Below, in pieces: positions 11,555-19,804 of a stretch of DNA of 64,000 bases; the first letter of the stretch is position 1; every line of letters begins with the position of its first letter. The position numbers and the translations under genes were made by a program. Source of the DNA: Labrenzia sp. 011 (GTDB lineage: Bacteria; Pseudomonadota; Alphaproteobacteria; Rhizobiales; Stappiaceae); NCBI RefSeq assembly GCF_003075075.1, contig NZ_QCYM01000010.1, positions 1-64,000 on the forward strand, written 5' to 3'. The notes beneath the pieces were generated by a model. The model was not told where the DNA came from, made no database searches, and was given only the letters and a program-made list of their open reading frames with translations.

Positions 11555-13138
11555 ATGGCGCTTCCGGTGATGCCTTTCTTCCGTCTGGTGCGGGCGGGAT
11601 ACGTGATGGCGCGCGAGGGCGTGTTCGGCCTCGTCTCCCTTCCCGACCTGCCGGCCGGTCCCAGATTCGCCATTGCGGCGGCGCGGCTGCTGGAGCGCCG
11701 GGCCGTGAAGAGCAAGAGCGCGGACCTGCGCCTTTCGGATGCCCTGAACAGACTCGGCCCGTCCTACGTCAAGCTCGGCCAGTTCCTCGCCACCCGTGCG
11801 GATGTGGTCGGCAAGGACGCGGCCCGCGAGCTGTCGGCGCTGCAGGACAGGCTTCCCGCCTTCGATGACGAGGAGGCCCGCAACGCGGTTTCCGAACAGC
11901 TGGGGCAGCCGGTCGAGGAGATCTTCGCCGAATTCGGAGAAGCGGTCGCCGCCGCCTCCATCGCGCAGGTGCATCCGGCCGTGATCCGCGGCACGGACGA
12001 TACGGAACGCAAGGTCGCGGTCAAGATACTGCGGCCGGGGGTCGCCCGCCGGTTCCAGCGCGACCTGGAAAGCTTCTACCTTGTCGCGCGCCTGGCCGAG
12101 CGCTTCCATGCGCCTTCCCGGCGCCTCAGGCCGGTTGCCGTCATCGACACGCTGGCGCAATCCGTCGCCATGGAAATGGATTTCCGCCTGGAGGCGGCCG
12201 CCCTGTCGGAAATGGCCGAAAACACCGCCGGAGATCCGGGGTTCCGGGTGCCGGAAGTCGAATGGCTGCGCACCGCCAAGGGCGTGCTCACCATGGAGTG
12301 GATCGACGGCCGGAAGATGTCGGACATCGAGGGCATGCGGGAGGAGGGGCATGACCTCGAAGCACTCGGCGCGGCGGTCATCCAGAGCTTCCTGCGCCAC
12401 ACCCTCCGGGACGGCTTTTTCCATGCGGACATGCATCAGGGCAATCTGTTCGTGCAGAGCGACGGCACGCTTGTCGCCGTCGACTTCGGCATTGTCGGCC
12501 GTCTGAACAAGCGCGAGCGCCGCTTTCTGGCGGAGATCCTGTTCGGTTTCATTACCCGCAACTACAAGCGCGTGGCGGAAGTGCACTTCGAGGCCGGCTA
12601 TGTGCCCGCCCATCAGGATGTGGACATGTTCGCCCAGGCGATCCGCGCCATCGGCGAGCCGATCCACGGGCACGACGCCAGCGAGATTTCCATGGCCCGG
12701 CTGCTCACCCAGCTCTTCGAGGTGACCGAACTTTTCGAAATGCGCACCCAGACCCAGCTGCTCATGCTGCAGAAGACCATGGTCGTGGTCGAGGGCGTGG
12801 CCCGTTCGCTCAATCCGAATCTCGACATGTGGCGGACGGCCGAGCCGGTCGTGGGAACCTGGATCCGGGAAAACCTCGGCCCGGCCGGCAAGCTCCGCGA
12901 TGCGGGGGATGCCTTTTCCGCGCTGGCCCGCATCGCCAACGACATGCCGCTGTTCGCCGACAGGGTCGGCCGCATGTCGGAAGAGCTGGAAAAGATGACC
13001 GCTTCAGGCCTGCGTTTCGACCGGGAAACCGCCGAGGCCATCGGCAGGGCGGAAGCGCGGCACACCCGCTCGGGCAGGATCGCACTCTGGGTGATCGCCC
13101 TTTCGCTCGGCGCGATTGCGGTGCATCTCATCGTCTGA
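11555..13138 (+). CDS. ubiB: UbiB, atypical kinase/ATPase for ubiquinone biosynthesis
   Basis: ABC1/ADCK-family protein needed for early hydroxylation steps of ubiquinone synthesis. The 527-residue product contains the family KLGQFLATRAD segment, the Ala-rich nucleotide loop with VAVKILRPGV, MHQGNLFV and DFGIVG, the equivalent of the kinase DFG. A hydrophobic C-terminal stretch (RIALWVIALSLGAIAVHLIV) should anchor it in the inner membrane. It follows ubiE after three bases. A near-palindrome at 13148-13163 separates it from the convergent aminotransferase gene. Confidence 0.95.
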   Translation: MALPVMPFFRLVRAGYVMAREGVFGLVSLPDLPAGPRFAIAAARLLERRAVKSKSADLRLSDALNRLGPSYVKLGQFLATRADVVGKDAARELSALQDRLPAFDDEEARNAVSEQLGQPVEEIFAEFGEAVAAASIAQVHPAVIRGTDDTERKVAVKILRPGVARRFQRDLESFYLVARLAERFHAPSRRLRPVAVIDTLAQSVAMEMDFRLEAAALSEMAENTAGDPGFRVPEVEWLRTAKGVLTMEWIDGRKMSDIEGMREEGHDLEALGAAVIQSFLRHTLRDGFFHADMHQGNLFVQSDGTLVAVDFGIVGRLNKRERRFLAEILFGFITRNYKRVAEVHFEAGYVPAHQDVDMFAQAIRAIGEPIHGHDASEISMARLLTQLFEVTELFEMRTQTQLLMLQKTMVVVEGVARSLNPNLDMWRTAEPVVGTWIRENLGPAGKLRDAGDAFSALARIANDMPLFADRVGRMSEELEKMTASGLRFDRETAEAIGRAEARHTRSGRIALWVIALSLGAIAVHLIV

Positions 13139-13178
13139 CCGGTTCCGTCTTCCGTACGGGAGACAGTGTGCCGGCAGG

Positions 13179-14354
13179 TCAGGCGGCCGCGCGGGCATCG
13201 GCGAAGGCATGAATGCGCCGCATTGCCTCGCGCAGCATCTCGTCCGGAACGGTCAGCGCCACCCGGATCAGGGATTGCGCGTTCTGGCCGAACGACGGAC
13301 CGGGCATGACCGCGACCCCATGGGTCTCAAGCAGGCTCCAGGCGAATTCTTCCCCGTCCAGTCCGGTCCCCGACACGTCGATCATGATGAACATGCCACC
13401 GGATACCTTGCCGGTCTTGAGAGAGGCGCAGCCTGCCAGGTCGCGCGCAATCGACCGGGCGCGCGCGGCATAGCTTTCACGCATGCGCTGGGCCGTGTCG
13501 AATGTCCCGCGCAGGGCCGCTTCGGTCATATCCGCGATGAAGGGCTGGTTGCCGAACAGAATGGTTTCGGAAATCGGCAGGAGCTTCGTGCAGAATTCTT
13601 CCGGTCCGATCGCCCAGCCGCTGCGAAAGCCTGTTGCCGCAAAGGTCTTGGAGATGGAGGAGGTGACAATTGTCCTGTCCCGAAGAGCCTCGATCTCGAG
13701 TGGTGAGGCGAATTCGCCCTCGAATATGAGGTCTTCGTAGACCTCGTCGCAGACGATCCAGAGGTCGTGCTCGCAGGCCAGGGCTCCAAGCTCCACGAGC
13801 GTATCCCGGTCGAGCAGGGAGCCGGTCGGATTGTGCGGTGTGTTGAGCAGGAGGACGCGGCTGGCCGGCGTGATGGCGCGGGCAAGGTCCGCCGGGCGCA
13901 TGATGAAACCGTCCTCGATGTTCAGCGGGACGGGTTGCAGGATTGCGCCGGGGGCGCGAATGACACCTTCATAGGTCGCGTAATAGGGGTCTCCGACCAG
14001 AACGCCGTCTCCGGCTCCCGCAAGCGCCGTGATGACGGCATACAGGGCGGTCTGGGTTCCCGGAAAGCACAGGATATTGGCGCCGGTGATTCCGGGAAAG
14101 CGCGGCGCATATTTCTCGACCAGCGCGTCCAGAAGTCCCTGTTCGCCGCGTCCGTTGGAATAATGGGTCCGGCCCCGGCGCATGGAGGCCGCGCAGACAT
14201 CGACCAGCTGCGGATCGACGGGAATATCCGGTTCGCCGATCGTCAGTTCGATCACCTCCTCACCGGCGGCAGCCCTCTCCCGGGCGGCGTTGTGCACGGC
14301 CCATTTTTCTCCGCCGAGGTTGGCGAGGCGATCTGTAATACCTGCGTAGCGCAT
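13179..14354 (-). CDS. PLP-dependent class I aminotransferase (AruH-like)
   Basis: 391-residue fold-type I aminotransferase converting an amino acid to its 2-oxo acid. The PLP-binding Lys lies in TSSISKTFAATGFRSGW. LLLNTPHNPTG and CDEVYEDLIF carry the conserved Asn, Asp and Tyr that hold the cofactor, and the substrate-carboxylate Arg is near the C-terminus. By memory the sequence resembles Pseudomonas arginine:pyruvate transaminase AruH more than AspC; the true substrate is not known. The frame extends to 14444, but the ATG at 14354 has AGGGA upstream and begins a normal N-terminus. It lies 16 bases after tetR and is surely co-transcribed with it. Confidence 0.85.
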   Translation of the reverse strand: MRYAGITDRLANLGGEKWAVHNAARERAAAGEEVIELTIGEPDIPVDPQLVDVCAASMRRGRTHYSNGRGEQGLLDALVEKYAPRFPGITGANILCFPGTQTALYAVITALAGAGDGVLVGDPYYATYEGVIRAPGAILQPVPLNIEDGFIMRPADLARAITPASRVLLLNTPHNPTGSLLDRDTLVELGALACEHDLWIVCDEVYEDLIFEGEFASPLEIEALRDRTIVTSSISKTFAATGFRSGWAIGPEEFCTKLLPISETILFGNQPFIADMTEAALRGTFDTAQRMRESYAARARSIARDLAGCASLKTGKVSGGMFIMIDVSGTGLDGEEFAWSLLETHGVAVMPGPSFGQNAQSLIRVALTVPDEMLREAMRRIHAFADARAAA

Positions 14355-14370
14355 CTGGACGTCCCTGTAT

Positions 14371-15021
14371 TCAAGTAGGCTGCTTTTCGCCCGAAAGGCT
14401 GCCCGCCGGCAGCTCGAGCAGGCGTTCGCAGGCTTCGGTGACAAGATCTGGTAGTATGGCGCGGCTGTAGAGGCCCGAATTGAGGGAGCCTTCCATCCAC
14501 AGACCGTCGATCAGGCCGTTCACCGCAATGGCATGACGGCGGCACGCGGCGGCGCTTCGGGGAAGGCCATGGGCGGCAAGGACTGGCTCGATCAGGCCTT
14601 CCAGCAGTGAGAGATAGTCCCTGTAGCCTTCGCGGTGAATGTCGGCGAAATCGGTCTCGTAGCGGACACGGCCGATAAAGGTTGCCCACAGGGATACTTT
14701 CTCCTCGGACAGGTTGGGCATGGTCATATTGGCAATCAGGAAGTGGCGCAGCTGATCGTTCGCGTCGCCTGTGGACTGGCGGGCCCTTGTTTCCGCTTCC
14801 GCGGTGAGCTGCCCGATCAGATAGGCGTAGGCACTGGTGATCAGACCGTTCTTGCTGCCGAAATAATGGCGCAGGAGCCCCGCGGTGACACCGGCCTCTT
14901 CCGCGATCCTGCGCACGGTCGCGCCCTTCAGTCCCTGTTGCGCGACACAGGTCAGCGTTGCCTCGAGAAGGGTGCGTTTGCGCTCGTCAAGCGTCAGGCG
15001 GCGGAAGGCTTTTCGGCTCAT
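14371..15021 (-). CDS. TetR-family transcriptional regulator (BetI-like)
   Basis: 216-residue one-component repressor. The N-terminal helix-turn-helix spans about residues 34-58 (GATVRRIAEEAGVTAGLLRH followed by YFGSK), the standard TetR pattern, and the rest is a helical ligand-binding domain. The ATG at 15021 begins MSRKAFRRLTLDERK; the frame is open upstream to 15087. A near-perfect palindrome 36 bases upstream (15057-15072) and a second copy beyond the next gene (16119-16134) are probably its operators, giving autoregulation and control of the neighbours. The ligand is unknown. It is co-transcribed with the aminotransferase gene. Confidence 0.88.
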   Translation of the reverse strand: MSRKAFRRLTLDERKRTLLEATLTCVAQQGLKGATVRRIAEEAGVTAGLLRHYFGSKNGLITSAYAYLIGQLTAEAETRARQSTGDANDQLRHFLIANMTMPNLSEEKVSLWATFIGRVRYETDFADIHREGYRDYLSLLEGLIEPVLAAHGLPRSAAACRRHAIAVNGLIDGLWMEGSLNSGLYSRAILPDLVTEACERLLELPAGSLSGEKQPT

Positions 15022-15056
15022 TGTCGAAGGGGTGGTCCATGGGTTCGATAGTGTAG

Positions 15057-15072
15057 TTATACATTTGTATAA
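15057..15072. promoter_or_regulatory. TetR operator candidate, copy 1 (tetR promoter)
   Basis: Plus strand TTATACA-TT-TGTATAA, a 7+2+7 perfect inverted repeat. It lies between the dehydrogenase stop and the tetR start, where a repressor would block tetR transcription. The same 7+2+7 pattern recurs at 16119-16134. Confidence 0.7.
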
Positions 15073-15109
15073 AATTGTGGAAAGCACAAGCCGGCACCGC
15101 GTGGCCGGG

Positions 15110-16066
15110 TCAGTATCCCTGGTGCCGGTCGATTGCTAGGCGCGGCCGTCTGCCCTGAAGAAGCTCGACGGCAGAGGCGTGGATCTGTTCCGCCACCACG
15201 CTCGGTGTGGAATCGCTGGCGATATGCGGCGTGATCCTCAGCCGGGCATCCTCCCAGAACGGATGGCTTTCCGGCAGGGGTTCTTCGCGGAAGACATCGA
15301 GGCTGGCCCCGGCCAGCTGACCGCTGTCCAGAGCCGCGGCGAAATCGGCTTCGTGCAGGTGCTCGCCCCGGCCGATCTGGATCAGCCAGGCACCTGGGGC
15401 AAGCTGGTTGAAAAGGCGACCGTTCAGGATGTTTTCCGTTTCGTTCGTCAGCGGCAGCACATTGATTGCGATCCGGCTGTCCCTGCAGGCCAGATCCAGC
15501 GCGCCGGAGCCTGAATGGTAGCTGATGCCCGCCAGTGGCTCTGCCGGTTCGGAGCGGCAGGCAACCGCGACGGAAAAGCCCATGGCGCCCAGGGCGCGGG
15601 CAATCGCCGCCCCCATTGTGCCGTTGCCAAGCACCGCGATGCGGGTTTTCTTCGGCGGTGACATGGGCAGTGGGTTCCAGACGCGCGCGTTCTGCTGGTC
15701 CTTCATCTGCGTGAACGAACGCAGAAAATGGAGCACTTCGTGCGCCGCGTATCCGGCCATCAGATCCGCCTGGTGGGGATCGCGCACCCGGCAGATCAGG
15801 GTTTCGCCGGCAAGGCTCGGGTTGGCGATGAGGGCATCGACCCCCGCACCGACGGACATTGCCATCTCCAGGTTCGGATAGCGGGCAAAGGCGTCGTCGT
15901 CCGGCAGCCAGCAGACCGCGAAGCGTATGGTGGCGGGATCGGAGACTTCCTCCGGGTCCAGCAGCCGCACCTGCCTGCCGCTGCCCTTGAAGTCGAGGCC
16001 ATAGAAGCTTTTCAGATCCATCGTGCTGCTCAACAGCACGCCGTCGATCGTCTCTGCCTGTTCCAA
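15110..16066 (-). CDS. D-2-hydroxyacid dehydrogenase, glyoxylate/hydroxypyruvate reductase A (GhrA) type
   Basis: NAD(P)H-dependent reductase of 2-oxo acids, or dehydrogenase of D-2-hydroxy acids. The 318-residue product has a Rossmann motif VLGNGTMGAAIARALGAMGF, the catalytic Arg in LIQIGRGEHL, the Glu in DVFREEPLPESHPFW and the His in RITPHIA, matching the GhrA layout. The start is uncertain: the TTG at 16066 has AGGAG seven bases upstream and keeps the first beta strand (GVLLSST), whereas the ATG at 16021 would cut it. The gene lies between the two palindromic operators, upstream of tetR on the same strand. The substrate is not determined. Confidence 0.82.
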   Translation of the reverse strand: MEQAETIDGVLLSSTMDLKSFYGLDFKGSGRQVRLLDPEEVSDPATIRFAVCWLPDDDAFARYPNLEMAMSVGAGVDALIANPSLAGETLICRVRDPHQADLMAGYAAHEVLHFLRSFTQMKDQQNARVWNPLPMSPPKKTRIAVLGNGTMGAAIARALGAMGFSVAVACRSEPAEPLAGISYHSGSGALDLACRDSRIAINVLPLTNETENILNGRLFNQLAPGAWLIQIGRGEHLHEADFAAALDSGQLAGASLDVFREEPLPESHPFWEDARLRITPHIASDSTPSVVAEQIHASAVELLQGRRPRLAIDRHQGY

Positions 16067-16118
16067 ATGATGTCTCCTGCGGCGCCTGTCGGAATTTTCC
16101 CTTGCCCCTCGCATCTAG

Positions 16119-16134
16119 TTATACAAATGTATAT
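16119..16134. promoter_or_regulatory. TetR operator candidate, copy 2 (dehydrogenase/aldolase divergent promoter)
   Basis: Plus strand TTATACA-AA-TGTATAT, the same palindrome as 15057-15072 with one change in the last base. It sits between the divergent starts of the dehydrogenase (16066) and the aldolase (16208) and could control both. Confidence 0.7.
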
Positions 16135-16207
16135 TAAGGAGTAAAGCGTTCGGGAGGTCGGCGTCCGCAAGGGCGATGCGGCCGCAGTCATGTGAAGGGA
16201 AAGATCG

Positions 16208-16969
16208 ATGTTGCAGACCAGCCGGTCCGGCGATGTGAGCAAGGCCGAATATGAAACCCGGGTCGAGCTCGCGGCCTGTTACCGGCTCGCGGCGCATTTC
16301 AGGATGTCCGATCTGATCTATACCCACATCACGGCGAAGGTGCCCGGAGAGCCCGGGCATTTCCTGATCAACCCCTATGGCTACATGTGGGAGGAGATCA
16401 CGGCCTCGTCGCTGGTGAAGATCGACGTGGAGGGCAACAAGGTCTGCGACAGCCCCAACCGGGTCAATCCGGCGGGCTTCACGATTCACAGCGCTGTCCA
16501 CCGGGCCCGCGGCGATGCGGCCTGGGTCATGCACACGCATACGAGGGCAGGGGTCGCCGTTTCGTCGTTGAAGGAGGGGCTGCTGCCCTTGAACCAGATC
16601 GCCCTGCAGTTCTACGGCCGTATCGGCTATCACGACTATGAGGGAATTGCGCTCGATCTTGAAGAACGCGAGCGGATTGTCGAAAGTCTGGGAGCCTATC
16701 CTGCGCTGATCCTGCGCAACCACGGTCTGCTCACCGTCGGAGAAAGTGCCGGGCAGATGTTTTCCAACATGTTCTACCTCGACCGGGCCTGCGAGATCCA
16801 GCAATCCACGCTGTCAATGGGATTGCCGCTTGCGCAGATCGGGGACACGCTGGCGGCGCATGTCACCCGGCAATACGACCAGATGGCTTTCGACGACGGA
16901 GACTTGCTGCTTGAATGGGATGCAATGATGCGCCTTGCGGATCGCATCGATACTGGTTTTCGCGAATAG
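16208..16969 (+). CDS. Class II aldolase/adducin-family protein
   Basis: 253-residue protein of the L-fuculose-phosphate aldolase fold. Metal ligands are visible as His109 and His111 in VMHTHTRAG and His172 in LILRNHGLLT. Characterised members cleave sugar phosphates or other hydroxy-carbonyl compounds, or act as decarboxylases or epimerases; bacterial relatives of this subtype, with the N-terminal YRLAAHFRMSDLIYTHITA stretch, have no well-established substrate that I know of. Transcribed divergently from the dehydrogenase gene, with a shared palindromic operator between them, so it is probably in the same TetR-controlled pathway. Confidence 0.85.
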   Translation: MLQTSRSGDVSKAEYETRVELAACYRLAAHFRMSDLIYTHITAKVPGEPGHFLINPYGYMWEEITASSLVKIDVEGNKVCDSPNRVNPAGFTIHSAVHRARGDAAWVMHTHTRAGVAVSSLKEGLLPLNQIALQFYGRIGYHDYEGIALDLEERERIVESLGAYPALILRNHGLLTVGESAGQMFSNMFYLDRACEIQQSTLSMGLPLAQIGDTLAAHVTRQYDQMAFDDGDLLLEWDAMMRLADRIDTGFRE

Positions 16970-17550
16970 ACCAATCGAGTAGATTTTTCAGTCCTTTGTA
17001 ATGTTGGTGTCGTATTTTCATGAAACTGTTCAGCAACATGTAAATTGTTGCTTCAATTTTGATCCTGCCCACAAAATAGTCAGTCGGGTCCTTGACTTGG
17101 CGGGGCTGCGTGTTAGCCTTGCCGCATCCTGATTTGCCGGACTTTCGGCATTTCGCGGGCATGAAATGTTTGATCCGGTCTGTGTCGCGCAGGAATGGGC
17201 GATTGGGAAGACTGTGAAACGCTTGCCCGTGAAACAAGGCAGAGGGTTGAAATATCGCCGGCTCCCCGGCGATGTTGGGCCAAGATACGACTGAGAGCCC
17301 GAACCTCCTGGTTGCGCTTCTGTAGCCGACCAGTTTGCCAAACAAGCACACTTTCTCCGGTGAGCATTTCAGACATCTGGAATGCAGGTCACCGGGCCAC
17401 AGGGAAGCTGGCCGACAAGAGTCCGGTTATGGAAAGCCGTGTCCTTGCCGGAAAGCCGGATCCCCTCGACGTGCGTCGGCCAGCGGTGACTGCTGTCCGG
17501 CCGCGGCACCTCGTCAGCAAGCTGTTGAAGCAAGCCAAGGAACTGGATTC
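16970..17550. other. 580-base gap with hairpins and no firm gene
   Basis: Two clear stems are visible: AGCAACA/TGTTGCT with a 7-base loop (17032-17052) and ATCGCCGG-CTCC-CCGGCGAT (17254-17273). A TTGACT at about 17092 could be a -35 element for the genes that follow, but no convincing -10 was found. An open frame with a GTG at 17360 runs to a stop at 17572, overlapping the start of the next gene by 22 bases. It may encode a small protein of about 70 residues that I do not recognise. The region looks less coding-like before about 17350. Confidence 0.4.
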
Positions 17551-17751
17551 ATGGACATTACGAACGCAATAGACTGCAACGGATTATCCGCAGCGCCCAC
17601 CCTTTTGCGGATCAAGCAGGCGCTGGTTGGGCTGGTCGACAACGCCCTGCCGTTGGAGATCCTCGTGGACGCAGGGTGCGACCAGGACAGATTGCGCCGT
17701 TCGCTCGGGCGGCACGGTGAAGCCGTTCGGCTGGTCTCCCGTCCGCAATAA
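17551..17751 (+). CDS. TusA/SirA-like small protein lacking the catalytic cysteine
   Basis: A 66-residue protein starting at the ATG with AAGGA eight bases upstream. It follows the TusA outline: an initial strand ending in Asp then Gly-Leu (IDCNGL), a Pro after it, a helix LLRIKQAL, a second strand LEILVD and a final helix LRRSLGRHGE. In true sulfur carriers the helix start is CPxP; here the region reads SAAPT, so the Cys is replaced by Ala and it should not carry persulfide. A Cys two residues before Gly-Leu is not the usual site. It may instead be a regulatory or scaffold protein. The methyltransferase gene follows 89 bases later on the same strand. Confidence 0.5.
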   Translation: MDITNAIDCNGLSAAPTLLRIKQALVGLVDNALPLEILVDAGCDQDRLRRSLGRHGEAVRLVSRPQ

Positions 17752-17840
17752 CGCTTTTCAGGCTTCAGGGGCGTCCGCATCGCGCCCGCGAACAGCCGTG
17801 TCCGCTGCGGCTCCCGCGCGGAAAAATTTGCAAACACGTC

Positions 17841-18854
17841 GTGTCCGGGCCGGGAGACAGCTTGCCGGCGGGATGCGACAGCCTGTTCGATGCGGCAGGC
17901 AGACAAGGAACTGATTTTTTGCCCGATCTGAATGTTGACGAAATGCCAGCCGGAACGTCTGTTCCGGGTTCTGCCGATGGGATCAGTCCGGAAGTGCCGG
18001 ATTTCGCTTTCGATCCGACCGACCCCTGGACGGAGACGTTCCAGAAAGGTCTGGAGCGCGCCGGGCTGTCCGGCAAGCGTATTTATGAAGTGGGTATCGG
18101 CACCGGGATCAATGTGGCCTTCCTCCTGCGCATGTGCGGGGTCGCGCATGTGTCGGGCAGCGATCTGGACCCGCGGCTGGTTGTTCTGGCCGAGCGCAAC
18201 GTCAGGAGCCTGGCTCCGGAAGAAGCCGACATGTTCCATCCGGTCAGAGGCGCCGTGAGCCTGATCGATACCGACGAAGCCCGGACCCGGATCGCCGAGA
18301 CCGATGTCATCATCGCCTGTCTGCCGCAGGTTGGCGATCCCGGTGACGGGCGGCTGACGGCTTTTCGCGAGGCCCAGTCCGTCGAACTGCCGGAGAGCGC
18401 GGAAGAAAAGGCTGACGACCACATCGCTCATTATTATCCTTGGGCGGCTTTCGACCAATATCCGTTCAATTCGGTAGGACTGGGTCTGAACGAGGCGCTG
18501 CTGCGCCGCATCCGGGACCACGCGCCGGCCGCGCAGGTGATCATGAATTTCGGTTGCCGGATCGGAACCGGCATTATTTTCGAAATGTTCGAAGCCAATG
18601 GATTCCGGCCGGAAAAGCTGTATTCCCAGATCGTCCGCCAGGATGCGGGGACCGATATCTCGTTCTTCGTCATGCTTGAAAAGGCATTGAAGGGCACCGG
18701 GCTGGAAAAGGATCTGGTCTGCGCGTTTTTCGCGGATGCGGAGGGCGCCAGCCCCTTGTCCGCCAGCGAGGCGCAGACCCTGCTCGACCGGAACCCGGAT
18801 ACGCCGCTCTACCACGAAGTCTGCGTGATCCGCGCCGTACCGGCCGCGGCGTGA
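17841..18854 (+). CDS. SAM-dependent methyltransferase resembling methionine S-methyltransferase (MMT/MmtN-like)
   Basis: 337-residue class I methyltransferase. Motif I is YEVGIGTGINV (about 82-92), with an acidic residue at about 108-110 after the second strand. The later features IACLPQ, NSVGLGLNEAL, NFGCRIGTGI and QDAGTDISFFVMLEK follow the order seen in the N-terminal methyltransferase domain of plant methionine S-methyltransferase (remembered as CIPQ, FGLGL, NMGGRPGQG, AADTDIS). Bacterial MmtN enzymes of DMSP synthesis belong to that family. Methionine or a related thioether is therefore a possible substrate, but this is inference. The GTG start is weakly supported; an ATG at 17943 is an alternative. 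It is preceded by a TusA-like gene. Confidence 0.72.
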   Translation: MSGPGDSLPAGCDSLFDAAGRQGTDFLPDLNVDEMPAGTSVPGSADGISPEVPDFAFDPTDPWTETFQKGLERAGLSGKRIYEVGIGTGINVAFLLRMCGVAHVSGSDLDPRLVVLAERNVRSLAPEEADMFHPVRGAVSLIDTDEARTRIAETDVIIACLPQVGDPGDGRLTAFREAQSVELPESAEEKADDHIAHYYPWAAFDQYPFNSVGLGLNEALLRRIRDHAPAAQVIMNFGCRIGTGIIFEMFEANGFRPEKLYSQIVRQDAGTDISFFVMLEKALKGTGLEKDLVCAFFADAEGASPLSASEAQTLLDRNPDTPLYHEVCVIRAVPAAA

Positions 18855-18865
18855 CGACAGTGTCC

Positions 18866-18886
18866 CGGGCAGCAAGCGGCTGCCCG
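18866..18886. terminator. Hairpin between convergent methyltransferase and alkB genes
   Basis: CGGGCAGC-AAGCG-GCTGCCCG, a perfect 8-bp stem with a 5-base loop, lies between two converging genes. No U-tract follows on either side, so it is at best a weak shared terminator. Confidence 0.4.
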
Positions 18887-18902
18887 CCACCTGCCCGGAC
18901 CC

Positions 18903-19529
18903 TCATGCGGGGTGTGTCACCCGTCTGAGCGTGAGGTTGATCCGTCCGCCGTTCTTCAGCAGCGTCGATGTGCCTGTAAGCACCCGGTCGATACCGTGGA
19001 AGGCGAGACGCGCCTCTCCTGCGAGCACGACGACGTCACCGGACTGCAGCCGGAAGGACTTCGTCGGATCCTTCCGGGTCAGGCCGCCGACGCGGAAGGT
19101 GGCCGTGTCGCCGAGGGAAACCGAAATGACCGGGGCCTCGAACGTCTCCTCGTCGCGATCCTGGTGCAGGCCCATTCGGGCGCTTTCCTCATAATAGTTG
19201 ATGAGGCAGGCTTCCGGGTCGGGTGCCTGCGGCGCAATGTCTCTCCACAGGGCGGTCAGGCGCGCCGGCAGCGCCGGCCAGGGAAGTCCGGTGTCCGGGT
19301 GAAGCGGCTGATAGCGGTAGCCGTTGATATCCGAAACCCAGCCGAGCGGACCGCAGTTGCTCATCCGGACGGTAAAGGGCTTGCCGGTCCGGGGCATGAC
19401 GGGTCTGTAGAACGGTGCCCGGGCGACAACCGCGCGGATTTCCGCCAGCAAAGCCTCCTGGGCATCGCGGTCGAAATAGCCGGGCAGATAGCCGAGGCCG
19501 CTCGGGCCGTTGAGTGACAAATCCTTCAT
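18903..19529 (-). CDS. alkB: AlkB-type DNA dealkylation dioxygenase
   Basis: Fe(II)/2-oxoglutarate-dependent enzyme that removes methyl groups from 1-methyladenine and 3-methylcytosine. The 208-residue product has the iron ligands His and Asp in LHQDRDE, the second His in RLAFHGIDRV, and the 2-oxoglutarate Arg in RINLTLRRV. The segment MSNCGPLGWVSD also matches E. coli AlkB. It is a single gene diverging from dnaK. The neighbouring SAM methyltransferase is convergent and unrelated in operon terms. Confidence 0.93.
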   Translation of the reverse strand: MKDLSLNGPSGLGYLPGYFDRDAQEALLAEIRAVVARAPFYRPVMPRTGKPFTVRMSNCGPLGWVSDINGYRYQPLHPDTGLPWPALPARLTALWRDIAPQAPDPEACLINYYEESARMGLHQDRDEETFEAPVISVSLGDTATFRVGGLTRKDPTKSFRLQSGDVVVLAGEARLAFHGIDRVLTGTSTLLKNGGRINLTLRRVTHPA

Positions 19530-19642
19530 GACGAACTATTAGCGCATCGCGTGACGGGCCGCAGCCCCCGCCTCCGGTAACTTTCCGGGAAGAAATATCG
19601 GGCATGAGAGGGCCTGTCTGCTATGTGTCCGTCCACAGACGG

Positions 19643-19674
19643 CTTGCAGGCAAAGTTTCATCCACCTATATAGC
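19643..19674 (+). promoter_or_regulatory. RpoH (sigma-32)-type promoter of dnaK
   Basis: CTTG (19643-19646), an 18-base spacer and CCTATATAG (19665-19673) match the alphaproteobacterial heat-shock layout CTTG-N17/18-CYTATNTNNG. It lies about 130 bases before the dnaK ATG. Similar elements precede hslV and nfuA in this window. Confidence 0.7.
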
Positions 19675-19804
19675 ACTCAAGCTTCGCGCCATTCCCGAAC
19701 CGAAAGTTCCGGCGCGATGTCCGGGACAATCCCGGAACCCAACTGAGAGGAGCCGGACTGACGCCTTCATGGGTCTATTCGGTTTGCTAGAAAGAGAGGC
19801 AGAT

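Follow-up and report, generated by a model that had tools for sequence, protein, structure and literature searches.

Background

A local regulon under the control of a TetR family regulator is a familiar kind of system. One such regulator is BetI, which, according to the passages of PMC12442346 used here, represses osmolyte genes locally and has palindromes that overlie promoters, the box of BetI1 being ATTGACG*CGTCAAT. Among marine sulfur compounds DMSP is a major one, and it gives rise to climate-active gases; its synthesis by the methylation route starts with S-methylmethionine, the product of MmtN (sections of PMC9135737). The same sections include 7VVV among the MmtN structures and rely on two references for gene clusters likely involved in DMSP, of which Novosphingobium sp. 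BW1 is one; these main-text sections mention neither a TetR protein nor an operator. On another DMSP route, most producers lack an identified 2-hydroxy-acid decarboxylase (part of PMC11306096). Two transcriptional regulators in DMSP metabolism are dddR and dddZ (portions of PMC13280387); these regulate the breakdown of DMSP, whereas the TetR protein considered here is a candidate regulator of synthesis genes. The passages covered of PMC8004995, PMC8543147, PMC11464771, PMC11306096, PMC12442346, PMC13280387 and PMC7876524 name no regulator of the MmtN route. The literature matches listed, with the original mmtN paper (2019) outside their scope, likewise contain neither a regulator of mmtN nor an operator of the kind described below, and a search with the operator string gave mostly primers among the matches listed.

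The regulator of the present locus (P0001) shows a TetR_N domain (PF00440, 48.2 bits against a cut-off of 24) and shares with BetI the BetI-type C-terminal domain PF13977. Its closest curated family is BetI itself (TIGR03384), at 92.7 bits against a cut-off of 201.3, and a separate protein elsewhere in the genome passes that cut-off with 248.9 bits; P0001 was therefore rejected as a BetI proper. Like BetI, it is proposed by analogy to act as a local repressor with palindromes over its promoters. Unlike BetI, it has no bet genes as neighbours, and its putative sites follow the pattern TTATACANNTGTATAA, which is not the betI box. It also resembles the TetR proteins of a set of Rhodobacteraceae clusters, which are 36-44% identical to it, adjoin an aminotransferase gene and often have the same operator upstream, but differ in their further neighbours, namely an ABC transporter, a predicted 5-guanidino-2-oxopentanoate decarboxylase and a dimethylargininase-like protein. 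In the cluster of Novosphingobium sp. BW1 (L049), the order of the genes for the aldolase, dehydrogenase, TetR, aminotransferase and MmtN is that of the window (the whole 64-kb stretch of DNA analysed here), and both palindromic sites are present. The window thus has the same mmtN neighbours as the BW1 reference.

Results and discussion

The gene cluster and its two palindromes

An earlier note on this DNA had placed tetR, the aminotransferase and the dehydrogenase on the reverse strand and the aldolase on the forward strand, and this layout stands (Table 1). Past the aldolase the cluster continues with a long leader, an ORF of 66 amino acids and mmtN, none of which had figured in that note. 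Residues 48-336 of P0005 match the PDB chain 7vvv (E 2.8e-132), and their identity, as estimated from the printed alignment, lies above the 50% set for Group I MmtN in the sections of PMC9135737 seen. As read from its genes, the cluster is a predicted DMSP-synthesis cluster, with mmtN as the marker of the S-methylmethionine route. The aminotransferase gene is separated from tetR by 16 bases, adjoins it in all 19 orthologous clusters described below and is probably cotranscribed with it. Judging by the sequence and the alignment with relatives, the dehydrogenase probably starts at a TTG (16066-16064) behind an AGGAG, and not at the ATG at 16114 given in the ORF list.

Table 1. Coordinates of genes, proposed operators and promoter-like elements in the window
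Feature	Position	Strand	Basis
PLP-dependent class I/II aminotransferase (P0002)	13179..14354	-	PF00155
BetI-like TetR family regulator (P0001)	14371..15021	-	PF00440 and PF13977 over cut-off
-10-like TATAAC of tetR-aminotransferase, overlaps site 1	15056..15061	-	TATAA in 19/19 relatives
Site 1, proposed TetR operator of tetR-aminotransferase	15057..15072	.	window and genome scans, 19 relatives
D-2-hydroxyacid dehydrogenase, GhrA-like	15110..16066	-	PF02826; best NCBIfam GhrA below cut-off
-10-like TATAAC of dehydrogenase, overlaps site 2	16118..16123	-	spacing table, alignment
Site 2, proposed TetR operator in the intergenic region of the divergent dehydrogenase and aldolase genes	16119..16134	.	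window and genome scans, 19 relatives
TATATT, possible aldolase -10 inside site 2, weak	16130..16135	+	inferred by reading the sequence
-35-like TTTACT of dehydrogenase	16140..16145	-	16 bases from -10-like element
Class II aldolase/adducin-fold protein (P0004)	16208..16969	+	NF005451 over cut-off
Degenerate counterpart of GATTAAAATTTAATC, 4 mismatches	17050..17064	.	same place as second palindrome of relatives
TTGACT, -35-like element before small ORF and mmtN	17092..17097	+	CTTGAC invariant in 13 aligned clusters
Conserved small ORF, 66 aa, tentatively TusA-like	17551..17751	+	TusA 16.2 bits, below cut-off of 28.6
MmtN, methionine S-methyltransferase (P0005)	17841..18854	+	7vvv match; N-terminal start uncertain

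Site 1, TTATACATTTGTATAA, is a perfect 7+2+7 palindrome that matches TTATACANNTGTATAA without mismatch and ends 35 bases upstream of the start of tetR. Site 2, TTATACAAATGTATAT, differs by one base and lies 52 bases upstream of the TTG proposed as the dehydrogenase start and 73 bases upstream of the aldolase start. The positions of the two palindromes, the single changed base and the absence of further copies had all been claimed before, and all are borne out. There is no third match with up to three mismatches in the window, and none with up to two mismatches in the whole genome (5,099,630 bases in 65 contigs), in which the reversed control pattern gives 10 matches at the same threshold; the palindrome is thus not frequent elsewhere in the genome. 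Dinucleotide shuffles of the window contained a mean of 0.06 matches, and two matches were reached in none of 100 shuffles.

Conservation in orthologous clusters

Relatives of the TetR protein were gathered by a scan of contigs, of which the best 80 of 85 loci were kept; loci duplicating a named locus (L004, L005, L007) were excluded from the counts. In 19 of these best 80 loci (L033-L050 and L098) the aldolase, dehydrogenase, TetR and aminotransferase genes are arranged as in the window, and the TetR proteins are 67-92% identical to that of the window. They comprise three clusters from Roseibium or Labrenzia, three Rhizobiaceae-like ones, four from Novosphingobium and nine from Thalassospira. 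The gene for MmtN is present in all 19, although in L041 the locus ends within the match. With up to three mismatches allowed, the palindrome occurs at both positions in every one of the 19 clusters, so that the conservation beside TetR orthologues on which the earlier note had made its proposal depend is found throughout. Site 1 has 0, 1, 2 or 3 mismatches in 2, 10, 4 and 3 clusters respectively, while site 2 has one mismatch in 7 and two in 12. The base that distinguishes site 2 is itself a conserved feature, being A in 17 and C in 2 of the 19 relatives, whereas the same end position of site 1 is T in all of them.

Elsewhere in loci L033-L112 (610,960 positions, not counting a 2.1-kb stretch upstream of every tetR), there are no matches with up to two mismatches and five with up to three. 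When up to two mismatches are allowed, each of the 19 whole genomes contains 1-8 copies of the pattern and 1-11 of its reversed control; given this similar frequency, most matches at that threshold are noise. Among the matches listed, which cover 17 of the 19 genomes, every one with at most one mismatch is at the cluster. A different palindrome, TTAAACAAATGTTTAA, is present once in most Thalassospira genomes, outside the cluster.

The intergenic regions of the window and 18 of the 19 relatives (L044 was omitted) were aligned. Upstream of tetR the palindrome is nearly the sole conserved block, site 2 is conserved together with the adjoining TTTACT, and the flanks have diverged to the point of being barely alignable. 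This bears on the idea that the sites look conserved merely owing to recent horizontal transfer of the cluster. The surroundings do differ between genomes, as would be expected of a transferred cluster: in six wider stretches compared with the window the shared genes are those of the cluster alone, and outer genes are shared only in L123. Nevertheless, the palindromes persist in clusters whose dehydrogenases are 59-88% identical and whose flanks barely align, and recent transfer is thus an extremely improbable explanation.

Overlap with promoter-like sequences

Both sites overlap -10-like elements, each of which is oriented towards the gene on the tetR side, namely tetR or the dehydrogenase. 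The overlap is clearest at the dehydrogenase, where TTTACT, present in 19 of 20 clusters with the window included, forms a -35-like element. The end of site 2 that forms the -10-like element reads TATAA in 10 of the 19 relatives and TTTAA in the nine Thalassospira clusters, which have a TTTAAC element. At tetR the spacing table yields no convincing -35 common to all relatives: some clusters have one at 16 bases (TTGACG in L038), Thalassospira has none there, and the TTG with the best conservation is separated from TATAAC by 22 bases, beyond standard promoter spacing. A strict promoter scan of 14950-17700 reported no promoter. The overlap raises the possibility that the palindromes are kept mainly as promoter elements. 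However, in the halves opposite the -10-like elements all 19 relatives share TTA..C at site 1 and TATAC at site 2, and a promoter has no need of dyad symmetry. We therefore consider a mere promoter function highly improbable, and favor the interpretation of the palindromes as operators placed over promoters.

Sites across the genus and the wider TetR family

In 45 genomes of the genus, 17 matches with at most one mismatch were found in 12 genomes, and 15 of the 17 are at a TetR-aminotransferase cluster. Because the reversed control reaches 12 matches in these 45 genomes, the argument for specificity is the location of the matches and not their number. The two off-cluster matches (G034 and G035), one overlapping the start of a 1552-aa ORF and the other preceding a 190-aa ORF, lie beside unrelated genes and are taken as chance occurrences.

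Among 53 loci with TetR proteins of 36-60% identity, many of which are Rhodobacteraceae TetR-aminotransferase pairs, the 400 bp upstream of tetR contain a site in 33 loci when up to two mismatches are allowed and in 39 with up to three. The remaining 14 show no site with up to three mismatches within those 400 bp, and in four of these (L104-L107) the match to the window TetR extends solely over the DNA-binding domain. The genes beside these regulators vary. In 71 stretches compared, with one representative of each neighbor family annotated, the predicted 5-guanidino-2-oxopentanoate decarboxylase family is present in 30 (723 bits; cut-off 500), an amino-acid ABC transporter ATPase family in 25, and a dimethylargininase-like family, below its cut-off, in 13. 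An operator common to TetR proteins with differing target genes fits the TetR protein as its reader. It is conceivable that a regulator encoded elsewhere binds the sites and that the proximity of tetR is coincidental, since varied TetR regulators do sit near unrelated operators and binding by the window TetR is itself a prediction; yet the concentration of the genus matches at TetR-aminotransferase clusters and the presence of the site upstream of TetR relatives with different neighbors make this very unlikely. The two palindromes are very probably the binding sites of the adjacent regulator.

We also compared the helix-turn-helix and ligand domains of the site-bearing relatives with those of nine more distant TetR proteins. 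Identity to the window TetR is 58% and 33% respectively in the former and 48% and 27% in the latter, and as these groups are not clearly separated the comparison was discarded as support. One of the nine, in L025, is 39% identical and comes from another genus; about 1 kb from its gene (L025:3079-3111) lie the adjacent palindromes TTATGCAACTGCATAA and TTATGCAAGTGCATAA, with two mismatches each. In the AT-rich genome of a Staphylococcus, TAATACATTTGTATTA, with two mismatches, occurs just before the gene of a 22% identical TetR (L103:4979). In the 45 Roseibium genomes the mmtN-type TetR is found in 6, another TetR type in 15, and both in none; such mutual exclusion would fit avoidance of crosstalk, but it is not significant (hypergeometric 0.073) and was set aside.

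Co-occurrence with mmtN

Six of 87 genomes of the family, our own included, possess mmtN, and they are the same six that have a TetR protein at least 73% identical to that of the window. Among 385 genomes sampled from the class, mmtN was detected solely in our own, and therefore this sample could not extend the test of co-occurrence. Two plasmid-borne mmtN genes, from Rhodovulum and Rhizobium lusitanum (L132 and L133), have other neighbors, with neither a TetR of the window type nor a site with up to three mismatches within the 17 kb fetched.

The wider distribution of the regulator suggests another interpretation, in which the module under TetR serves the catabolism of cationic amino acids, with no link to DMSP as such, and mmtN is a passenger. 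Consistent with this, related TetR-aminotransferase pairs lie near arginine/histidine-type ABC transporters and the predicted 5-guanidino-2-oxopentanoate decarboxylase, and plasmids of Martelella and Alloyangia carry genes for TetR, aminotransferase, aldolase and dehydrogenase without mmtN, with sites of three mismatches only. However, a passenger would scarcely be expected to be present in 19 of 19 orthologous clusters and to track the close TetR orthologue through 87 genomes, and we regard this interpretation as unlikely. In L129 and L130 the four genes lie near each other without mmtN, in L130 also with an amino-acid ABC transporter.

Separate control of mmtN

No TetR site with up to three mismatches lies near the mmtN promoter in the window, which places the first gene of the pathway outside the regulon. 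An alignment of the leader in 13 of the 20 clusters shows the -35-like element of this promoter to be conserved; there is no conservation of the leader between genera. A riboswitch in the leader was considered and rejected on this ground and on that of an Rfam scan of 12500-19700 at a permissive threshold, whose two matches both fell below their gathering scores. The small ORF between leader and mmtN has a relative in L119 without a TusA match.

Upstream of the mmtN promoter a second palindrome, TGATTAAAATTTAATC, is present once per genome in 8 of the 14 genomes searched (out of the 19), all of them Rhizobiaceae-like or Thalassospira (L036, L038-L040, L042 and L045-L047). A ninth genome, a Novosphingobium, has one match away from the cluster, and the three Roseibium genomes and the other two of the three Novosphingobium genomes searched have none. 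The reversed control has no match in the 14 genomes. The window contains a single version of TGATTAAAATTTAATC with up to four mismatches, the degenerate counterpart listed in Table 1. A terminator-like hairpin after the aldolase (17032-17052, arms AGCAACA/TGTTGCT) overlaps the place of this second palindrome. No regulator for the second palindrome is encoded in the cluster. The separate promoter of mmtN and the second palindrome suggest two layers of control.

Predicted regulation and function

We propose that the TetR protein encoded at 14371-15021 most likely uses the two palindromes as its operators, and that it would form a local, autoregulated regulon within the mmtN cluster. The earlier note had proposed repression of tetR-aminotransferase, the dehydrogenase and the aldolase together by the adjacent TetR, and this prediction gains support from the rarity of the sites and their conservation beside TetR orthologues. 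Repression with autoregulation would agree with the habit of the family and the position of the sites. A TetR dimer on site 1 would cover the TATAAC element of tetR-aminotransferase. At the dehydrogenase, where TTTACT and the -10-like element are 16 bases apart, binding of a dimer to site 2 would occlude this -10 and the spacer, and also the likely promoter of the aldolase, whose repression is probable. In contrast, mmtN would be transcribed from its own conserved promoter outside TetR control. By analogy with choline and BetI, TetR may be released by an MmtN product, in the simplest case S-methylmethionine or its derived 2-oxo acid, such that one layer of control would consist of a separate regulator for mmtN and the other of TetR acting on the remaining enzymes, opened by the MmtN product.

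The aldolase-fold protein P0004 belongs with the aldolase II superfamily proteins (NF005451, 350.1 bits against a cut-off of 207). Its solved relatives include a class II aldolase-domain protein, 3ocr, and the adducins, as well as NovR (E 2.4e-24) and TqaM (E 4.2e-22), both decarboxylases. NovR-type enzymes catalyze the oxidative decarboxylation of 2-oxo and 2-hydroxy acids; since the adducins are closer to P0004 than NovR, a decarboxylase role of P0004 is just a possibility. The aminotransferase, the dehydrogenase and P0004 could carry S-methylmethionine to DMSP. In such a route MmtN would supply S-methylmethionine, the aminotransferase would convert it to 4-dimethylsulfonio-2-oxobutyrate, the dehydrogenase would reduce this to the 2-hydroxy acid, and P0004, as a NovR relative, would decarboxylate the 2-oxo or the 2-hydroxy acid to DMSP. 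The literature passages covered here do not describe this route. Its combination with a TetR protein that senses a sulfonium compound, the later steps being opened solely when the first intermediate is present, is a tentative and rather doubtful proposal.

The apparent novelty is that an MmtN-type DMSP route now has a candidate regulator with a candidate 16-bp operator and a set of predicted target genes, all of them conserved across several groups of Alphaproteobacteria, Novosphingobium sp. BW1 included. This makes the regulation of the MmtN-type DMSP pathway directly testable, and for the steps after MmtN it directs enzyme assays to the aminotransferase, the dehydrogenase and the aldolase-fold protein. 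If the proposed route is true, it would supply a decarboxylase for the step that, in the part of PMC11306096 consulted, has no identified enzyme in most producers.
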